A stretch of DNA of 64,000 nucleotides from Candidatus Gracilibacteria bacterium CG17_big_fil_post_rev_8_21_14_2_50_48_13. Its GTDB lineage: Bacteria > Patescibacteriota > Gracilibacteria > 1-14-2-50-48-13. Both the position numbers and the translations under genes were made by a program. How positions within the stretch are numbered: the stretch's first letter is position 1; every line of letters begins with the position of its first letter. Under the pieces are notes generated by a model that was not told the origin of the DNA, searched no databases, and saw only the letters and a list, made by a program, of their open reading frames with translations. Positions 7,368-46,066 of the stretch are shown here, in pieces. The stretch lies in assembly GCA_002783265.1 (NCBI GenBank), contig PFFG01000006.1, positions 1-64,000 on the forward strand, written 5' to 3'.

Positions 7368-9365
7368 TTATAAAGGTGAGATAACTGCATCAAGGGTCGG
7401 ATCCCCCGTAAAAATCATCCAGTTGTTTTCAAACTGTTGCACCCAGCCCCGCGAATCCCTGTACCAAATACTCACCGGTGCACCCACAATATTCCAAGCA
7501 TTATACTTCGCCAAATAGGAGTAGTTCCACCAAGGGAGCATGTATGCGCGCTCGACCTTCGCGTTATACAACACGGCAGTTTGGGTACCTCCGCTTTCAC
7601 GCACCACTTCACCCCACACATTGCCAAACTTTCTGTATGTGCCCAGCACCCCAAGACTGCGATTTGCCACTTCTATATCGATGGCAGTTTTTGCAACATC
7701 GGGAATGGTCTCGGCAGGCGTATCCGTGGCATTTTCCATAGCAATCATATTGTCCACCGTCTGCATCTGGGGACTGAGAGCCAGAAACTGGGTAATTTTC
7801 GCTTTGTACGAATCCAAAATGGGAAACCGGTCCGTCTCGAAAAGCGGCGCCAGGTTGTATTTAGCAAAAGCACTCCAATAGTACACAAACTGACTCAACT
7901 TCTCCTGCCGTTCCGTGGAATAAAAGTAGCGAATGCGCCTCCCATTGTTCGCATAAAAACGCGTCGTATCAAACAACGATTGTTCGGGCACGGTTTCCAG
8001 TTTTTTCACCAGCACCATAAAATAGTAGTCACTAAGATGACCGGGGGTGGCAGAACTATCATAGAGGTCCGTAAAGGAATACCCCTTCGCTGTGTACTCC
8101 GTGTAAAAAGGTGCATAAAAGTCATAGAGTGCGGCAAAAGAATCATAGGAACGATTGCTGAGGCGCACAGCAAATCCACCTTGTTTCAAGGCATAGAGAA
8201 GCCGAATATTCGCCCATGCCTCAGTTGCGGAGCTATACACCAAGTACTGCGAGTTTGTACTGACAGAATCAAAGTTGTGGGAAAGCTCATGGACTAGGCC
8301 GAAGGTCAGCATGCCATAACTATTCCAGTCGCGAATGATTTCATTCAGAGCGAGATCCGAAAGAGTGACAGGATTTCCCGCATATCCCCAGGCTGGGATA
8401 GTCAGATGCCCATAGGGACACGATGGAGTTGCCACATTGGGGTTTACCGTTGGATCATAGGCACAGCGCTCGCGGAAAGTAACAATAGCGCCATTGTAGG
8501 GTTCCAGTCCCGTCACTTGAATGAGAGCCTCCTCGCTGGCGCTGAGCATGTCAGCAAAGGCCTCCGGACGCTCAAGAAGCTTGGCGTGTGCAGGAGTCCA
8601 CTCAAGGCGCACTTTTCCACGTTCCAGAATGCCTGTGTTGCGAAAAGCTGTCACCGCAGGTGAATCCTGCGCAGGCGGAGTAGGCGGGGCGGGGGTCGGC
8701 GGGACAATGGGACTAGGTTCGGGAGTGGGAGATGGAACTTCTTCTACAGGTGGATTTTCCTTGGCGTGAGCACCAAGAAAAGCGTCAAGTACATACGCCA
8801 TATCCCTGCGGGTCATAATATGATCCGGCTTTGAATCATCAATAAAAGTCAACAGGCTGCGCGCCTCCGCCTCACGAAACAGTGGTGCATACCACTCTTC
8901 CCCCTTCCCTACAGGCGTCAACGCAACCTCAAACGTCGCAAAAAGAATGCGCAGTCCCTCCGCCAGATTGATGGTGCGATCAGGATGAAATAGACCATCC
9001 CCATAGCCCTGCACAATGTTGTGCGTCCAGGCAAAATACACATAGGCGCTATACCATTCGTCAAAGTGAACATCCTCAAATCGTTGCCGTCCATCAGGCA
9101 ACGAGTAGGTAATCTCATCACTTTTCGCACCAAGCACCACCTTGAGAAATTCGGCACGATTAACGACACGATCCGGACGAAACGTACCGTCCTGGTATCC
9201 ATGAATGATGTTTTTGGTCGTCAGCGTGGTGAGAACTGACGACAAATCTGACCCATCGGGTACATCCGAGAATGCTGCGAAGGCAGTACCTGAGATACAA
9301 AGGAGCGCGGCAAGGACTAGGGACAAGAGGCACCGCAGACAGTGAATGGTGGAACGAAACAACAT
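7368..9365 (-). CDS. SLH-domain M60-like zinc metalloprotease, 665 aa
   Basis: Secreted surface protein. The signal peptide (1-30) ends SGTAFA. Three SLH repeats follow (about 32-80, 96-145, 157-198), the first with GYQDGTFRPDRVVNRAEF, which bind pyruvylated secondary wall polymer. A Pro-rich linker (about 203-235) leads to a catalytic domain with GLVHELSHNFD near 358 and TEAWANI 18 residues later. HExxH followed at that distance by Glu fits the gluzincin M60-like pattern (HExxH-x(8,28)-E). The C-terminal part (about 575-665) has an LGFP-like flavour (VGAPVS). M60-like enzymes cut glycoproteins such as mucins; the real target is unknown. csaB lies 2 kb away. Confidence 0.85.
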   Translation of the reverse strand: MLFRSTIHCLRCLLSLVLAALLCISGTAFAAFSDVPDGSDLSSVLTTLTTKNIIHGYQDGTFRPDRVVNRAEFLKVVLGAKSDEITYSLPDGRQRFEDVHFDEWYSAYVYFAWTHNIVQGYGDGLFHPDRTINLAEGLRILFATFEVALTPVGKGEEWYAPLFREAEARSLLTFIDDSKPDHIMTRRDMAYVLDAFLGAHAKENPPVEEVPSPTPEPSPIVPPTPAPPTPPAQDSPAVTAFRNTGILERGKVRLEWTPAHAKLLERPEAFADMLSASEEALIQVTGLEPYNGAIVTFRERCAYDPTVNPNVATPSCPYGHLTIPAWGYAGNPVTLSDLALNEIIRDWNSYGMLTFGLVHELSHNFDSVSTNSQYLVYSSATEAWANIRLLYALKQGGFAVRLSNRSYDSFAALYDFYAPFYTEYTAKGYSFTDLYDSSATPGHLSDYYFMVLVKKLETVPEQSLFDTTRFYANNGRRIRYFYSTERQEKLSQFVYYWSAFAKYNLAPLFETDRFPILDSYKAKITQFLALSPQMQTVDNMIAMENATDTPAETIPDVAKTAIDIEVANRSLGVLGTYRKFGNVWGEVVRESGGTQTAVLYNAKVERAYMLPWWNYSYLAKYNAWNIVGAPVSIWYRDSRGWVQQFENNWMIFTGDPTLDAVISPL

Positions 9366-38378: not shown

Positions 38379-41300
38379 TTAGGCAGCTAGTGAATTGTTT
38401 GAGGGAATGGGCACCTGTACAGGAATTCGATCGGTACGCAAAATGGACGTATTAAGCACACCAACGCCTTCGCGTATGCCCTTGAGATCAATAAGTCGGC
38501 CTTCTGAAATGGCATCCAGCTTGGCTCGTGCAATAGCCTCTTCACCGGCGGCACGCATTCCTGCAGGGTCTTCTGCATGTAAACGCCCAAGAGTTCCGTG
38601 GAAATTGGGAATATCCTTAGGGGCTAGGTTCGGATTCTTTACCCACGCATTGACTTGAACAAGGGCTTGTTCAACAGGTTTTGCATCACCAAGTACGGTT
38701 ACCCGAAAATCACCCCCGGGGAGTTTGAAACAACGTACATGGGTATTGCCTTTGAAAGCGTATTGCAAAAGCGCTCCAACATCCGCCAAGTGTGCGTCTG
38801 CAGCCTCGTAGGAAATTTTATTGTTAATGCTGCCAAAATTGGCTACATCAACACCAAACTCTGTAATCTGATCACCTGGTTTCGCCTGCCGATGAAACAG
38901 GTCTTCACCTCGACGATGTTTGTTAAAATACGTCGCGGAGAGTAAGCCCGTCACAGGGTCCACATTTTGATGAGACTCTATTCTAGAGATTACCTCACGT
39001 GCACGAACGTCGTTACGCGAAGCCCGGGCTTCTGCCAGTTCACGCAGCAGCACATCAAGTTCTCGGTTATGCATATCCTCTGCAGAAGGTTTTCTTTCCA
39101 AGCGTACCAGATCATCACCATTTGCATCATAATGGGTTTGCGCGCGTTGCTTTGCTGTATGAACACCTTTGCCTTCAAGCAGGGTTTGGATATCACGGAG
39201 ATAATACCCCAGCTCTGATGGTGGCACGGACGTATCAAGCCTTCGTGATGCCATACTGACACCTCCAACATTAATGCTACCATATCGCTCAACTTGTTTT
39301 TTCCCTAACTCCATCACTTCAAAGATATCACGATAGTAGGGGTCCTTTAGGGTAACTCCCTGCAGCAAAAGACCATTCTCGCGCATCCATTTGTTCATGT
39401 ACTCCTTTTCTGCCTGTGTAAATTGCATATGCCCGTCTGCATCAACCGATCTGGGGGGCACATAATCAGGCGCCAATCGTTTTGCATGTACGTCTTGCAT
39501 TAATTTCCTGTAGACCGATTTGACGCGCGCCTTATCCGCAAGGGCAGAAGGCAGTGTTTCCATATGTTTCTCTGCGAGTGCATTGAGGGTTGCTCCTGGG
39601 TCCTTTCCCGCTTTGAGAGGAAAAACATCCTGAATTTCCTGAATAAAGGTCCGCACAAAATCATCGGTTCTTTCTCTTCCCGTGACGGCATTCATCACAC
39701 CAAGGTTATTCATATCAATAAAATGCATGGACAGTTCACCCGAATCAGACCGTGATATGACCATAAATTCATCTCCCCCAACCCGGGTCACCAAGGGGTT
39801 TTTCACACCCGGTTTACTCTGCATGAGCGCTTGTACATCCTCCAAGTACTGCGCGCCTCCCAAATAGGTCTTGTTATGGACATCTAAATCCTTGAGACCC
39901 GGAGCGTAGTTAGACATATATTGTTCCTTCACTTGAGGAAAGACTTGCAGCGCTTGCGGTGACAACTCTGGAGCACGATACGTCTCTACCCGCCTTGATG
40001 TCTCCACATTGCGAGGCTGTGGGGGCGCAAGCGGCGTCCCGTCAACTTTCTGGGGAGATACACCCTGGTTGATTCGACTACCTTTTGCGAAGGTCTTGAC
40101 GAGGTCGTCAAAAGGAACTTTTCCACGGAGCATCTGTCCCCACTGACGAAGACCAAGGGTTGCGGTATCCCCTACTGCTTCTAACGTCTCCTTGCCCACT
40201 GCCTTGGCAACATTTTTTGAGACACGGTATGTTGCTTTTGCTGCAGCGAGAGCTTCCTTTGTGGTCATGGCCGCAGCTTTTTCCGCCATCTCTTTTGTCA
40301 CATTCACCATAACCGTTTTGATGCCTTGACGCGTAATTTGAAGAGCCATAGTTTTGAGTGTCACGCCAGCCCCTAAGGTTAACACCCCCCCGGCGCCTCC
40401 TGCAGGCAGTGTCGCCAAGGTCGCCACCGCCGTGCCAACAATCAGCATACTATCAAAAGTCGCACTCACGACAGTCAGTCCGCTGTTCATGAGTCCACCG
40501 GCAACATCACCTTTTTCAAAGGATTCAATGGTAGAATAGACTTGCCTGTACGTTCCGTACACGGGCATGACATCGAGTGCAAAGTTTCCGGCAGCGGCAG
40601 GGCCACCTGCGGCCACCTTTTTCCAAAAATCGAGTCCAGCAGCTGTATTTGCAGCACCACCAAGAAGATTACGCAATGCCGGGTTTTTTGCAAACACCGC
40701 AAAAAGGCCGCTGAGTTCAGGAACAGCATGCGCATAACGGGCCAAATGTTCCACAGGAATGCCTAATTCAGCAGCCGTTTGATTGAGTTTCACCATCATG
40801 GTGGCCGCATTGACATGGTTCATCTTTTCCAAATCCTTTGCAAGACTTTGCAAACGACCGTTCACGTATTCGGGTTTGTGCTTCGTCAATTTTGCACCTC
40901 CTCGTGCAACAAGTGCTGACCAAGCATGCTCTCCGCGTACCTTTTTATCGAGAGAAAGATCATAGGACTTTGCTTCGTGCATCAGTGCTACGACCTCGTC
41001 TCCAGACTTTTGTATATCGAGAGGAGTAGCAAAGGGATCGGCAATTAAGGCAAGCTGGGCATCGGCACGATTTTTGATATCCGCTGGGTACGCTACTTTC
41101 CCTGTGGATTGCAGAAAGGCTTCATGAAGGTTCTTCGCCATTTTTTGATTTGCTTCAGCACGGCTAGCCAACATCTGTTTTATGGCAGTAAGCTCTTCTG
41201 GATCAAGTTCAGCACCTCGTTTCCCATTTTCGATGTAGTAAGCTTTGCCTGTATCCTCATCAATTTGAATGGACACTTTCGTGTTCACAGGAATAACGGC

Positions 41301-42146
41301 ATCTTTATTTGTCCGAAGGCGATACACGGAGGCGGCAATGGCAAGATCCTGAACGTTCAGCGGAGGAAGTTGTCGGTCAAATTTTTGTATAACCTCCTTC
41401 GGCATGGTTTTTCGCTGTGCATCTGTCAGGTTATTCGCCACGTCTGCAAGTTCTTTGCTGACAAGGTCATGAATCAGCCGCGCGCGATGAAAGGACTCCA
41501 CACGATTCCCTGCCTTCACAGAAGTTTCTATTATTTGCGCTTTGAGTCGTGCACGCCGCATAGCACGCTCATTTATGGCTTTTGTTTGGGCGAGCATTTC
41601 CTGAGATGCTTTTGCACGCAATTCAGCTAACCGAAGTGCCTGCTGCTGCTCTACTTGCGAAAGCCCCCGTGTATCAAGACGATTGCGCAAGGAGCCGATA
41701 CTCTGCTCTTTCTCGCGTAACGCATTGTGGACAGCCGAAGTTTTATCCAGTGCAGCTTGGCGTTCTCGTGTGTTTCCTCGCGCTTTCATTGCTTGCATCT
41801 GCGCATTTTTATCTTTGTAGCCTGACGCTTTAAACTTCTCCATCCAGAAGGTATAGTTACCTTCACTACTTCGACGAAGGGCTGCAGCTTGCTGTCGCAC
41901 ACGTGCAGCTTCCTGGGTACGACGCTGAGCGGCCGAATACAGGTTACGCACTTGCCTTTGTGCCGGAGTTTGTGCAGCAAGAAGTCGCTGACGCTGTTGC
42001 TCAGCAATTCTTGCACGTTGGGGCGCTGTGGCGACACGCTGGCGCTCATTATAGCGCTTCATGCCCGCAGTAATCCGCTGACGTTCAGCACTTGTTTTTG
42101 CCGCAGCTAGTTTTTGGCGATAGAATTCGCCTGCACCTTGCGCCAT
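38379..42146 (-). CDS. giant coiled-coil protein with two GGDEF-type domains, 1255 aa
   Basis: The N-terminal 240 residues are Arg/Gln/Ala-rich coiled coil (YRQKLAAAKTSAERQRITAG...). A helical middle follows. Around 515-620 comes a Gly/Ala-rich hydrophobic stretch (DVMPVYGTYRQVYSTIESFEKGDVAGG..., TLPAGGAGGVLTLGAG) that could be membrane-active. Near 790 is RVGGDEFMVISRS with an intact GGDEF motif. Near 1060-1150 is a second unit (DPVTGLLSATYFNK, VDVANFGSINN) whose motif is degraded to LPGGDFRV. Diguanylate cyclase activity is possible for the first only. A -10 element at 42171-42176 supports this start. It looks cytosolic or peripheral, with no signal peptide. Confidence 0.8.
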   Translation of the reverse strand: MAQGAGEFYRQKLAAAKTSAERQRITAGMKRYNERQRVATAPQRARIAEQQRQRLLAAQTPAQRQVRNLYSAAQRRTQEAARVRQQAAALRRSSEGNYTFWMEKFKASGYKDKNAQMQAMKARGNTRERQAALDKTSAVHNALREKEQSIGSLRNRLDTRGLSQVEQQQALRLAELRAKASQEMLAQTKAINERAMRRARLKAQIIETSVKAGNRVESFHRARLIHDLVSKELADVANNLTDAQRKTMPKEVIQKFDRQLPPLNVQDLAIAASVYRLRTNKDAVIPVNTKVSIQIDEDTGKAYYIENGKRGAELDPEELTAIKQMLASRAEANQKMAKNLHEAFLQSTGKVAYPADIKNRADAQLALIADPFATPLDIQKSGDEVVALMHEAKSYDLSLDKKVRGEHAWSALVARGGAKLTKHKPEYVNGRLQSLAKDLEKMNHVNAATMMVKLNQTAAELGIPVEHLARYAHAVPELSGLFAVFAKNPALRNLLGGAANTAAGLDFWKKVAAGGPAAAGNFALDVMPVYGTYRQVYSTIESFEKGDVAGGLMNSGLTVVSATFDSMLIVGTAVATLATLPAGGAGGVLTLGAGVTLKTMALQITRQGIKTVMVNVTKEMAEKAAAMTTKEALAAAKATYRVSKNVAKAVGKETLEAVGDTATLGLRQWGQMLRGKVPFDDLVKTFAKGSRINQGVSPQKVDGTPLAPPQPRNVETSRRVETYRAPELSPQALQVFPQVKEQYMSNYAPGLKDLDVHNKTYLGGAQYLEDVQALMQSKPGVKNPLVTRVGGDEFMVISRSDSGELSMHFIDMNNLGVMNAVTGRERTDDFVRTFIQEIQDVFPLKAGKDPGATLNALAEKHMETLPSALADKARVKSVYRKLMQDVHAKRLAPDYVPPRSVDADGHMQFTQAEKEYMNKWMRENGLLLQGVTLKDPYYRDIFEVMELGKKQVERYGSINVGGVSMASRRLDTSVPPSELGYYLRDIQTLLEGKGVHTAKQRAQTHYDANGDDLVRLERKPSAEDMHNRELDVLLRELAEARASRNDVRAREVISRIESHQNVDPVTGLLSATYFNKHRRGEDLFHRQAKPGDQITEFGVDVANFGSINNKISYEAADAHLADVGALLQYAFKGNTHVRCFKLPGGDFRVTVLGDAKPVEQALVQVNAWVKNPNLAPKDIPNFHGTLGRLHAEDPAGMRAAGEEAIARAKLDAISEGRLIDLKGIREGVGVLNTSILRTDRIPVQVPIPSNNSLAA

Positions 42147-42170
42147 ACCAATGAAAATAAGAATCTGTAC

Positions 42171-42176
42171 AGTATA
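42171..42176 (-). promoter_or_regulatory. -10 element upstream of the GGDEF gene
   Basis: Minus strand TATACT, 24 bases before the chosen ATG; no clear -35. Confidence 0.4.
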
Positions 42177-42222
42177 ACACACTCTTTGGGAGGAGTATAG
42201 CCACATTTCTCCTAACCTCTTC

Positions 42223-42279: not shown

Positions 42280-42612
42280 ATGCTCTACGCACACTTGCTG
42301 CATATCATGCGGCACATAAAAAAATTTGTTCAATGCCCTGGATGCCAGCAACATTTCACGAATCGAGATATTGATCTCGTGGAGCTCCACGATGATGGGA
42401 TGCTCATGTATGTGGATTGCCCGCGATGCCATACGGAAATAGAGATGGAAATTGGCATTCAGGATGGGAATCTTGTCCCCATCATTAACGTCTCACGGGA
42501 GCCTGTGATTACGAAAGAAGACGTGGAGAATGTCGCCGCACAGCTCGACAAACATAAAGGAGCACTCAAAAGCCTCTTTACCAAAGCAAAGGAACGCAAA
42601 AAAAAGAAGTAG
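42280..42612 (+). CDS. zinc-ribbon protein, 110 aa
   Basis: Carries two knuckles, CPGCQQ near 19 and CPRCHT near 47, making a four-cysteine zinc ribbon. An acidic, then Lys-rich helical tail follows (VAAQLDKHKGALKSLFTKAKERKKKK). Family unknown; likely nucleic-acid or protein binding. ATG at 42280 is used; the Met nine codons later (MRHIKK) is possible. The terminator begins inside its last codons. Confidence 0.7.
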   Translation: MLYAHLLHIMRHIKKFVQCPGCQQHFTNRDIDLVELHDDGMLMYVDCPRCHTEIEMEIGIQDGNLVPIINVSREPVITKEDVENVAAQLDKHKGALKSLFTKAKERKKKK

Positions 42613-42629
42613 CCTCGGCTACTTCTTTT
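42602..42629 (+). terminator. intrinsic terminator overlapping gene end
   Basis: AAAAGAAGTAGC / GCTACTTCTTTT around CTCG. Works on both strands, so it also serves the convergent surface operon. Confidence 0.9.
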
Positions 42630-42646: not shown

Positions 42647-43246
42647 TTATTTTTGCGGTGAGGAGAGAAGCATCGTCATCCCCATCATCGCACACAGAAT
42701 ACTGGCAGAAAGGAGCCAACTCTCCGCACCGGTTTGTGGTACTTTTGGTAGCTTTTTCAGAGATTCTTCCGCAAGCTTATTCGTTTCCGAGGGTTGTTTT
42801 TCCGTGGCGGGTGTCGTAACGGCTGACGCTACCGCTGTAGTGTTCGTATTCTCGTTACTATTACTCAGACCCAAAGAACTAATAAAGGATTCTGCCCCGC
42901 TGGTCGCTGCGGGTCGCAAATTTTCGAGTGATGTGACGTCATCCATCGTGCGCACTAAGCTTTCCGAACTGCTCGAAAGCGTCGTTCCCGTCATCACCAA
43001 ACCGGACATAACGGATCCAGTAGAGAGTTCAGGAAGACCAACACTTGGCGTTGCATCAAAGATACTACTCGAGACGATCGCATTGGCATTTCCATTTTCC
43101 TGCACAACTTCCAGGGGAAGCGTCGCGTTCTGATCTGAAAGGAGATTGGACTGAAACATCGTGGTATTGGACGTGAGGAGAAAAACAGCTCCTGTCAGCG
43201 CTCCAATCCCTACGATCGCCCCTGTTGTTTTGAAAAACTTGTTCAT
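42647..43246 (-). CDS. small surface-anchored protein, 199 aa
   Basis: An N-terminal membrane anchor or signal (about 8-27) is followed by a Ser/Thr/Asn-rich low-complexity body. The C-terminus has a wall-sorting-like end: LPKVPQTGAESWLL, a hydrophobic helix and the short tail SSPQK. The start of the mature part (MFQSNLLSDQN) resembles the same region of the dockerin-like protein upstream (LFQASLLSDGN). Third gene of the cohesin/dockerin operon. No enzymatic domain. Confidence 0.7.
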   Translation of the reverse strand: MNKFFKTTGAIVGIGALTGAVFLLTSNTTMFQSNLLSDQNATLPLEVVQENGNANAIVSSSIFDATPSVGLPELSTGSVMSGLVMTGTTLSSSSESLVRTMDDVTSLENLRPAATSGAESFISSLGLSNSNENTNTTAVASAVTTPATEKQPSETNKLAEESLKKLPKVPQTGAESWLLSASILCAMMGMTMLLSSPQK

Positions 43247-43255
43247 TGGAAGAAA

Positions 43256-44584
43256 TTATCGAGATGTTTGCGTACGGAAGGTCCAAAAGGCACCAGCTCC
43301 GAGACTTAGCAGTAGCAGAATAAGCAGCATTTCGGCCGGACCATTTTCTGGCATGGTCGGTACTTTCGCCAAAGATGCACGAGCTTGGTCACTGATAGCT
43401 GTTGTGAGTACACTTGTAGCAATTAAACCCGCCCGGTCTGCGATTTTCGTGAGGTAAGAGTCATTTTCGTAGTATACCGCGTCCTTTGTTCCATCAACGG
43501 TAAACATTGGCGTATAGGCACTTTCCTTGCCATTTGCATCAACATGGGTGAGCACGAAGTAGTAGGTACCCTTTGTCGGCATACCACTAAAGGTAAAACT
43601 GCTGTCTGGATAGAGTACTTTTTTTCGTGTTGAGAAGGTGTCTGCCTTCGTTCCATAATAAATGTAGGTGGCACTTGCGAGGGTATTATTTGACCAATAC
43701 AGCGAAATGGATTTCCCCATTTTCTTTATGGCAATGTCACGTGGTGCATCAAAGGTTACCGTAGGCATTGCATTCGTATTTGTATTGGCATTGGTCTGCA
43801 CCGTTGCTGCACTATTCGTATTTGTATTACTGAGGCCTGCAAAGGATGTATTGGTATTTGTATTGACCACACTCGCATTTGCATTGCCATTGAGATTCGC
43901 ATTCGTCGTCGTTCCTGTGACGGCAACATTTGTATTCGTATTCCCTGCAGAGGTATTACTATTGGCATTACTGCTGAAGATGTTATTCACCGTCGATCCA
44001 GAAGTGGTCGTCACAGCGCTACTGCGAGTGCCTCCAAGTGTTATGGAAATAGGCTTAAGGCTCTCCATATCAACAATATTCGTGGATATACCCTCCACCG
44101 TTGCATTAGCCGTAACACGCTCTAAACCGCTTTGAGTCTTTATGAAATCCAAAGACGTAGAGCCACTGCCCGTTGCTTCAAAGACAAAGGTCGCCAGTGT
44201 ATAGGTTGTATCCGGCACAAGTGATGTATCTTTCAAGGTAGCCCGACTAATGCGCGCCTGACCCGAAGAGGCCTGGAACTCGTTTTCCCCGCTACTGAGC
44301 AAATTAATTTCAAAGGGTGACTGGGCAGGATAGGTCACACTCACACCGCGCAGCTGGGCTGGATCATAGGAAATCAAGGCTTCCACAGACGTCAGCGCCT
44401 TCTTGGACGGGTTACTCAGGAAAAGATCGACTTGAATCTGATCTCCTGCAGAAACAGAGGTCTGACGTGGCGTCATAGTCATGACAACATCGCGGCCTGC
44501 CGCAACCTGTGCCATTGCAGGGGCGATACTACCTGTTCCGAGAAGACTCGCGATAAGCGCGAGGGAAAGAATTGAAGTGCGCAT
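43256..44584 (-). CDS. cohesin-domain surface protein, 442 aa
   Basis: Signal peptide (about 1-26, ends APAMA), then a cohesin-type domain (about 30-180): VVMTMTPRQTSVSAGDQIQVDLFLSNP, VEALISYDPAQLRGVSV, TLATFVFEATGSGSTSLDF. An Asn/Thr/Ala-rich linker (about 195-285), a fibronectin-III-like domain (ISLYWSNNTLASATYIYYG... GTYYFVLTHVDANGKES) and a C-terminal anchor MPENGPAE plus helix and basic tail follow. Cohesins bind dockerins, and a dockerin-like module is encoded by the gene just upstream. Met at 44584 chosen because the signal peptide starts there. Confidence 0.85.
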   Translation of the reverse strand: MRTSILSLALIASLLGTGSIAPAMAQVAAGRDVVMTMTPRQTSVSAGDQIQVDLFLSNPSKKALTSVEALISYDPAQLRGVSVTYPAQSPFEINLLSSGENEFQASSGQARISRATLKDTSLVPDTTYTLATFVFEATGSGSTSLDFIKTQSGLERVTANATVEGISTNIVDMESLKPISITLGGTRSSAVTTTSGSTVNNIFSSNANSNTSAGNTNTNVAVTGTTTNANLNGNANASVVNTNTNTSFAGLSNTNTNSAATVQTNANTNTNAMPTVTFDAPRDIAIKKMGKSISLYWSNNTLASATYIYYGTKADTFSTRKKVLYPDSSFTFSGMPTKGTYYFVLTHVDANGKESAYTPMFTVDGTKDAVYYENDSYLTKIADRAGLIATSVLTTAISDQARASLAKVPTMPENGPAEMLLILLLLSLGAGAFWTFRTQTSR

Positions 44585-44626
44585 AGGGTGAAATTTATGT
44601 ATGTGTGTTGTTGTGTTCATGGTGGT

Positions 44627-46066
44627 TTAGTTTCGGTCGAGATTAAACGTGAACAAGTAGATGGAAAGGTCCGTGTTGTCGACCTTGCCGTCTCCATTGA
44701 GATCCGTTTCGATGTCGATGGCTGAAGGGCGTGTCCCGGTTGTAGAACGTTCTGTGCTCAGCGGTGTGCCCAAGAGACTCGTACCAAGAGGTGCTAGGCT
44801 CGAAGGAGCTGTTGTTCCCGTAGTAGATACTGTTCCTGAGGCTGCTGGCCGTACGACAAACTTCAAGGCCCCCTGCAGAACATTACTTCCCCCATCCATC
44901 ACCATATAGGGAATTTCGTAGGGCAGATCGCGGCTAATCACGCTGTCTGGAAGAGCAAAACTTCCTCCATAGACACTGTATTTTGGACCCGTACTGACCA
45001 TGGCAAGAGGAATACGCGGAGCAAGGCCAAAGTTTGATAGATCCATTTCTACGGTTTTAATGTCATCCATTCCATCAGGATCTGTGACACTTAAGTACAC
45101 ATAGACCGTTTCCCTGCTCTTTTCACGAATGAGTGGCGGGGAAACACGGGTCTGGTCCTGCGTCAGAAGCGGCATACGGAAGGCCTGTGCTGTTCCAGCG
45201 CTAACGCTGCTGTTGTTATTGGTATTTGCCGCGGGTTTGCGTACAGGATCAGGAATAAAGGTTGGCTCGGGAGCCGTATCCTTCATTTCCATGGTGAGCA
45301 CACCTCGCTCCGTCGCCGGGTTCGAGACCCGCACTTCCGTCGTGAGCGACGCACGCGTCGTTTCCCCATTTGTTGGGCGGAAGTACAAAATATCCACTGG
45401 TGCCGTATTAAAAGGAATTGCCGTCACGGAATTATCAAAGGAGGTGATTTCTGCATTCGTTACCTTTAATTGCAGCCCTGTGTTGGGGAGCAACGGAGTA
45501 TCCAGCACTTCCATGGGAAGAGAGAGAAACGGATTGATCTCCTCTGCCATATTCCATACTGCTCCATTGGAAGGCATAATTTCGAGAGAAAGCTCATTGG
45601 GTTGTGATGTTGTGTCCACCACAATCGTTGCACCAGAAGCCGTCACCTGACGTTCACCCGCATACCGCATGACCTTACTGGGATACGAAATGGAGAGACG
45701 CATATTTTTTTCCACAATGATGGGTGTATCAGGCCTAAAAGCGAGCGTAATCAATCCTGCCCCTGGTTTTTCAAACGCGTAAATAGAGGGAAAGAAAAAC
45801 CCTTTATTCTCCCCGGCCGCATTCAGTGCTGTTCGGTACGCCTCTGTCCGTTCTGTATAGATGGGAAATTCCAGAAGTTCGCTTCCCGTTCCTCCAAGCG
45901 CAATCAGTGCATTTGCTCCAAAGGAGGCGCCTGAACCTACGGTAACGCCGTTACCGTCGGAGAGGAGCGATGCCTGGAAGAGAGTGCCCCTTATGCTTGC
46001 CACAACCACAAGAACTGTGAGAGAGGCAGCGAAGATCAGCACCGGGATCATTGTTTTTCTTTTCAT
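44627..46066 (-). CDS. secreted protein with C-terminal dockerin-like calcium loop, 479 aa
   Basis: N-terminal signal or anchor (MKRKTMIPVLIFAASLTVLVVV). A long beta-rich region follows with cohesin/adhesin-like stretches (FEKPGAGLITLAFRPDTP, RLSISYPSKVMRY). An Asn/Ser linker comes next, then a second beta domain (VYVYLSVTDPDGMDDIKTVEMDL) and a Ser/Thr linker. The last 25 residues contain DLNGDGKVDNTDLSIYLF, one dockerin-type calcium-binding repeat. Only a single repeat is present, whereas classical type I dockerins have two. An extended -10 upstream supports the Met at 46066. First gene of the operon. Confidence 0.8.
   Translation of the reverse strand: MKRKTMIPVLIFAASLTVLVVVASIRGTLFQASLLSDGNGVTVGSGASFGANALIALGGTGSELLEFPIYTERTEAYRTALNAAGENKGFFFPSIYAFEKPGAGLITLAFRPDTPIIVEKNMRLSISYPSKVMRYAGERQVTASGATIVVDTTSQPNELSLEIMPSNGAVWNMAEEINPFLSLPMEVLDTPLLPNTGLQLKVTNAEITSFDNSVTAIPFNTAPVDILYFRPTNGETTRASLTTEVRVSNPATERGVLTMEMKDTAPEPTFIPDPVRKPAANTNNNSSVSAGTAQAFRMPLLTQDQTRVSPPLIREKSRETVYVYLSVTDPDGMDDIKTVEMDLSNFGLAPRIPLAMVSTGPKYSVYGGSFALPDSVISRDLPYEIPYMVMDGGSNVLQGALKFVVRPAASGTVSTTGTTAPSSLAPLGTSLLGTPLSTERSTTGTRPSAIDIETDLNGDGKVDNTDLSIYLFTFNLDRN

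Follow-up and report, generated by a model that had tools for sequence, protein, structure and literature searches.

A three-gene operon of a gracilibacterium that may fix an Ig-like protein to an anchored cohesin through half a dockerin

In the window, the 64,000-nucleotide stretch of DNA from a Candidatus Gracilibacteria genome analysed here, a gene for a cohesin-domain protein lies directly behind a gene whose product ends in a calcium loop of the dockerin type, which raises the question of whether the two products join on the cell surface, and in what kind of system. The initial annotation placed such a gene pair here, and both open reading frames were found where it put them, its boundary at 46066 being the internal start MKRKTM, an alternative start of the loop gene. 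Noncellulosomal cohesin and dockerin modules are known (Peer et al. 2009, FEMS Microbiol Lett 291:1-16, as cited in PMC9012536), as are cohesins and dockerins outside cellulosomes in ANME archaea (PMC9012536) and in Omnitrophota.

The putative operon and its genome

The features of the locus are the following, all on the minus strand:
42602..42629 (-): terminator-like hairpin, 12 pairs followed by a T run, 17 bases past the P0001 stop
42647..43246 (-): P0001, 199 aa, with an N-terminal TM, an S/T-rich body and a C-terminal VPQTGA + TM anchor
43256..44620 (-): P0002, 454 aa, with a signal peptide, cohesin, N/T-rich linker, FN3-like domain and C-terminal anchor
43259..43354 (-): C-terminal anchor of P0002, MPENGP + TM
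43487..43774 (-): FN3-like domain, approximately residues 283-378 of P0002
44123..44479 (-): cohesin domain (PF00963), residues 48-166 of P0002
44627..46108 (-): P0003, 493 aa, with an N-terminal TM, beta-rich region, Ig-like region, S/T-rich linker and C-terminal loop + helix
44630..44704 (-): half-dockerin of P0003 at its extreme C-terminus, calcium loop DLNGDGKVDNTD + helix LSIYLFTFNLDRN

In the direction of transcription the order is P0003 (the loop gene), P0002 (the cohesin gene) and P0001, with spacers of 6 nt and 9 nt, respectively. Because of this spacing and the hairpin that follows P0001, the three genes look like a single transcription unit. The hairpin was judged by where it lies and how long its stem is, since terminator-like sites are no more frequent in the region than in shuffles (6 found, with 4.1 expected). 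Thus, the unit had been described too narrowly: the pair stands, but a third gene belongs with it, and P0002 and P0001 carry paired TG/NG-TM anchors. Downstream of the operon, a 1275 aa protein (window 38379-42206) carries a GGDEF-like domain at its C-terminus (25.8 bits, cut-off 23.8), and elsewhere in the window a 665 aa protein (7368-9365) has N-terminal repeats that appear SLH-like by eye, as in the other SLH proteins of the genome.

The genome comprises 1.28 Mb in 11 contigs, and no other member of its family is present in the genome collection used. The nearest YchF proteins are those of Candidatus Gracilibacteria (60%) and Candidatus Peribacteria (59%), which bears out the initial assignment to a Patescibacterium. 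UGA recoding is expected in Gracilibacteria, and in-frame TGA codons were found within the matched genes of some genomes of the same class. On these two grounds the genome is assigned to the class Gracilibacteria.

Cohesin, half-dockerin and anchors

The cohesin domain of P0002 matches PF00963 with 29.2 bits on the protein and 32.6 bits in the genome search (cut-off 24.1), and is the one Pfam cohesin in the whole genome. Searching the PDB with a profile built from 60 class cohesins, that of the window being the first sequence, gave approximately 35 matches to cohesins of scaffoldin or related type (e.g., 3l8q, 1g1k and 2b59; best E 7.5e-19); the P0002 sequence alone had no match there. We take this domain as a true cohesin by sequence. 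The hydrophobic signal at the N-terminus of P0002 and the TM at its C-terminus agree with its earlier description as a signal-peptide cohesin protein with a C-terminal anchor. Its FN3-like region had no match in a Pfam scan of P0002 itself and aligns with the same region of class counterparts, one of which matches PF00041.

P0003 ends in the sequence DLNGDGKVDNTDLSIYLFTFNLDRN, in which the loop DLNGDGKVDNTD (residues 469-480 of 493) holds a terminal position and has the calcium ligands D1, N3, D5 and D12. The match of this loop to PF00404 (Dockerin_1) covers profile positions 34-51 of 57, which are the second half only, and scores 18.9 bits in the genome search (E 0.0024) and 16 bits with hmmscan, below the cut-off of 22.9. 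A single calcium repeat rather than two had been proposed, and the match indeed spans one repeat; where two F-hand calcium repeats would define a dockerin, P0003 has one loop with an S/T-rich linker before it, for which reason it is not filed as a type I dockerin. To judge from its sequence, the C-terminus of P0003 is only half a dockerin, without the paired loops that form the classical dockerin module. Over its last 31 residues, P0003 shares 52% identity with the second loop of a dockerin-like protein at another locus (L219), and the loop also matches single-loop proteins at two others (L183 and L193). A single-sequence AlphaFold prediction of a read-through construct, in which the P0003 tail and the P0002 cohesin are joined by reading the stop codon TAA as G, had a pLDDT of 34, too low for reading either a nine-strand jelly-roll or an interface from the model.

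The remainder of P0003 is beta-rich, as had been noted of the cohesin's partner, but "secreted" may here mean membrane-held, since the protein has an N-terminal TM (residues 17-44). Its Ig-like region (approximately residues 290-425) matches loop proteins of two families of the class, f9 and f2, with E values of 5e-4 to 0.04 in a small database. No orthologues of P0003 were found by tblastn in genome_contigs or viral_contigs, and a cohesin-like domain in its N-terminal half was considered and rejected (hhalign probability 2%).

P0001 ends in VPQTGA-TM, which matches in kind the MPENGP-TM of P0002. The LPXTG profile TIGR01167 scores 10.2 bits on P0001, below its cut-off of 15.9; the VPQTG and MPENG motifs with their TM are present and conserved by position. 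Among the class cohesin loci, a [TSN]G motif with a C-terminal TM is encoded by 42 of the 99 cohesin genes and by 46 of 90 genes directly after them (together 88/189), and by none of 380 other same-strand neighbours, so that P0002 and P0001 conform to the anchor pair of the class. The genome has a single sortase (PF04203, 89.3 bits, at C6:21001), and it may process the anchors of P0002 and P0001. As a specific partner of the cohesin system the sortase was rejected: 277 of 288 class genomes carry one, with or without a cohesin, so it gives no specific link to the operon. In many genomes of the large family f4 (e.g., at L246) the dockerin-cohesin pair has a sortase gene on its own strand, approximately 10 kb away.

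A further motif occurs just after the N-terminal TM of P0003 (FQASLLSD, window 45956-45979) and of P0001 (FQSNLLSD, window 43133-43156). Related forms are FLQSSLFG and FLMSSLFG in SLH proteins, QLIKGSLFD or LLQGNLFD in f9 next-gene proteins, and LQSNLLS and FQANLLN in family f17 (L004 7656-9407; L266 6601-9174; L160 3277-4320; L217 595-4377 and 5962-6954). Of 435 genes with an N-terminal TM, 12 match a loose pattern for it (control rate 0.65%); the motif may be a signal for processing or sorting surface proteins.

Gene order in Gracilibacteria and other Patescibacteria

One hundred cohesin loci of the class were taken and, with the window included, the cohesin open reading frame could be placed in 99. 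By a strict loop pattern near the C-terminus, a loop is present at 45 of 288 gene positions comprising the cohesin gene and the two genes preceding it, compared with 1 of 572 positions elsewhere at these loci; it lies in the cohesin gene itself in 5 cases, in the gene before it in 30 and two genes before it in 10. No loop was found downstream of the cohesin gene among the 99 loci with this pattern, by which more than half of the cohesin loci have no loop in the neighbourhood. The initial reading of the locus as a cohesin/dockerin-type pair is strengthened accordingly: the adjacency of loop and cohesin is kept in many lineages and is not a chance of one genome.

Co-occurrence in whole genomes points in the same direction. 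Among 288 class genomes, 116 have a cohesin, 105 a dockerin match and 76 both; dockerins are found in 76/116 genomes with a cohesin versus 29/172 cohesin-free genomes (odds ratio 9.4), a total inflated by kinship, related genomes not being independent. Inside f4 the co-occurrence is not significant. For both reasons, more weight is placed on gene position.

The arrangement takes several forms. In f4, a two-loop dockerin protein of approximately 110 aa is followed by a cohesin-FN3-anchor protein and then by an anchored protein, which is cupredoxin-like in at least one case; this domain (L246, 13518-14423) scores 24.9 bits with PF13473, just below the cut-off. It is possible, on the basis of such a match, that the anchored gene after the f4 cohesin encodes a copper protein tied to the cohesin operon. 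Two f4 genomes (G271 and G277) have eight dockerin matches each, possibly a multi-dockerin system in Gracilibacteria. In f9, a loop protein of approximately 640 to 1900 aa (with a Big_5 Ig-like domain in the one scanned) comes first; a cohesin of 200 aa, a further cohesin that carries a PQNGP-TM anchor and a TPxTGP-TM protein follow in that order. The loop protein has one loop, DLNGDGKVDFIDF, without a second in the 75 residues upstream. A single chain combines cohesin and dockerin-like repeats in f18 and in some further families, with LTD and FN3 domains in the one scanned. Such chains, with an adjoining TM protein, were noted at L155, L163, L150, L194 and related f18, f23 and f26 loci, and proteins of this design could in principle polymerise head to tail.

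The operon in the window resembles a compact f9 arrangement: P0002 is collinear with an f9 cohesin protein (L233), with which it shares its domain order and an alignment of 442 aa (E 4e-16), and f9 and f2 loop proteins are the matches to the P0003 Ig-like region.

A search of the 1.28 Mb genome with the PF00404 profile, as the initial annotation had suggested, found dockerin-like loops in two places only, so that there is one more loop besides that of P0003, and it too precedes a cohesin-like protein. This second loop is the end of a 2179 aa FN3 protein on contig C1, and 35 nt past its gene is that of a 583 aa protein with three SLH domains. In hhalign, the class cohesin profile matches the N-terminal part of the SLH protein (probability 73, E 3e-5), and the protein has no cohesin match by Pfam or the class HMM; it is best called cohesin-like only. 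A third cohesin relative in the genome, of 857 aa with an SLH-like C-terminus, has no loop gene beside it.

Across a sample of the phylum, cohesins are present in 112 of 380 genomes. Among 19 loci of other classes, a loop gene followed by a cohesin occurs in five (L276, L278, L280, L283 and L285), with single loops at L278 and L283; single-loop half-dockerins before cohesins thus recur both in other families of the class and in other Patescibacteria.

Proposed docking on the cell surface

From the domains, the gene order and the conserved arrangement, all of which are observed, we infer that this is probably a three-gene surface operon in which the half-dockerin of P0003 docks an Ig-like protein onto the anchored cohesin of P0002, with no cellulosome. 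P0003 would be exported by way of its N-terminal TM and display its Ig-like beta domains outside the cell; P0002, exported by means of its signal peptide, would stay attached to the cell surface through the NG-TM anchor at its C-terminus, perhaps after processing by the single sortase of the genome. The calcium loop and helix that end P0003 would then dock on the P0002 cohesin in a calcium-dependent manner and join the two proteins, with P0001, similarly anchored, as the third member of the presumed complex. The membrane may hold the two partners by opposite ends, which would constrain the geometry of docking. For a Patescibacterium, a role in contact with a host or another surface is plausible, and what comes closest to supporting it is the reported essentiality of an envelope protein with a dockerin domain in a cultivated epibiont.

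Alternatively, the loop may have a structural role, binding calcium to cap or stabilise the C-terminus of P0003, the P0002 domain being a plain beta-sandwich and the two genes neighbours whose products do not dock. The score of the single loop below the Pfam cut-off would fit this, and cohesin-fold domains in non-dockerin roles are known in principle, but the loop comes after a linker at the very end of the protein, the usual place of a dockerin, such loops lie solely upstream of or inside the cohesin gene, and true two-loop dockerins hold the same position in f4, all of which make a purely structural site unlikely. The loop might instead dock a different cohesin, either one of the SLH-anchored cohesin-like proteins (C1:262655 or C5:160646) or one on another cell or of another species. 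Cross-binding is usual in cellulosome systems, and the genome does encode these two further cohesin-like proteins; against a distant partner, loop and cohesin genes are tightly paired in locus after locus, favouring the neighbour, and the second loop of the genome has a neighbour of its own, so that we give this arrangement a rather slim chance.

That the operon is a reduced, cellulosome-like display of enzymes, its dockerin proteins bearing polysaccharide-active parts, is highly improbable, in spite of the family resemblance and of the up to eight dockerin matches in some class genomes. No enzyme domain was found in P0003, P0002 or P0001 by Pfam and NCBIfam scans, the absence of a glycoside hydrolase thus being upheld for the three-gene operon; the scanned f9, f4 and f18 neighbours are Ig-like Big_5, FN3, LTD and cupredoxin-like proteins with no enzyme among them; and no multi-cohesin scaffoldin was seen in the genome. 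A cellulosome proper was rejected, the operon having no enzyme domain and the genome no scaffoldin and one Pfam cohesin.

The preferred reading, docking of P0003 on its neighbour P0002, has partial precedents. The clostridial anchoring scaffoldins (PDB 3l8q, 1g1k and 2b59) share the cohesin domain by profile, whereas here there are no enzymes, no tandem cohesins and no two-repeat dockerin. The truncated group 2 dockerins of Ruminococcus flavefaciens, for which a single binding mode has been proposed (PMC2930009), are likewise shortened, but are part of a large cellulosome. The modules of Peer et al. (2009), as cited in PMC9012536, are alike in being cohesin- or dockerin-type modules on surface proteins without a cellulosome, and single-loop cases may already be among them; the distinguishing features here are the conserved operon, the paired TG/NG-TM anchors, the half-dockerin and the wide spread in Patescibacteria. 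For the dockerin and cohesin proteins of ANME archaea, surface attachment, S-layer-type anchoring and possible contact with a partner have similarly been proposed, but these include scaffoldin-like proteins with up to five cohesins (PMC9012536), whereas here each protein has a single cohesin or a single loop. The epibiont Southlakia epibionticum has a dockerin-domain envelope protein, SEML1_0315, which is likewise patescibacterial and was reported to be essential (PMC10633639); glycan targeting was proposed for it and no cohesin partner named, whereas P0003 has a cohesin as its neighbour. No description of cohesin/half-dockerin pairs in Patescibacteria was found in open-licence PMC text, and what seems new is the conserved operon, a half-dockerin with two anchored partners, across Patescibacteria.

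More tentatively, and with the balance somewhat against it, the same device may operate throughout the phylum as an enzyme-free docking system, in which one calcium loop is enough to fix large Ig-like surface proteins on anchored cohesins; the gene order would be fixed and include a TG/NG-anchored pair, and the system would take part in holding a host or neighbouring cell. The locus raises the question of whether half a dockerin is sufficient for binding, which the dockerin-domain protein reported to be essential in the cultivated epibiont (PMC10633639) makes transferable to a genetic system. The recurring order names candidate surface proteins in many uncultured lineages, for which a cheap binding test is possible. 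The recurring order of cohesin and single- or double-loop dockerin genes bears both on how Patescibacteria build their surface and on how they hold on to their hosts.
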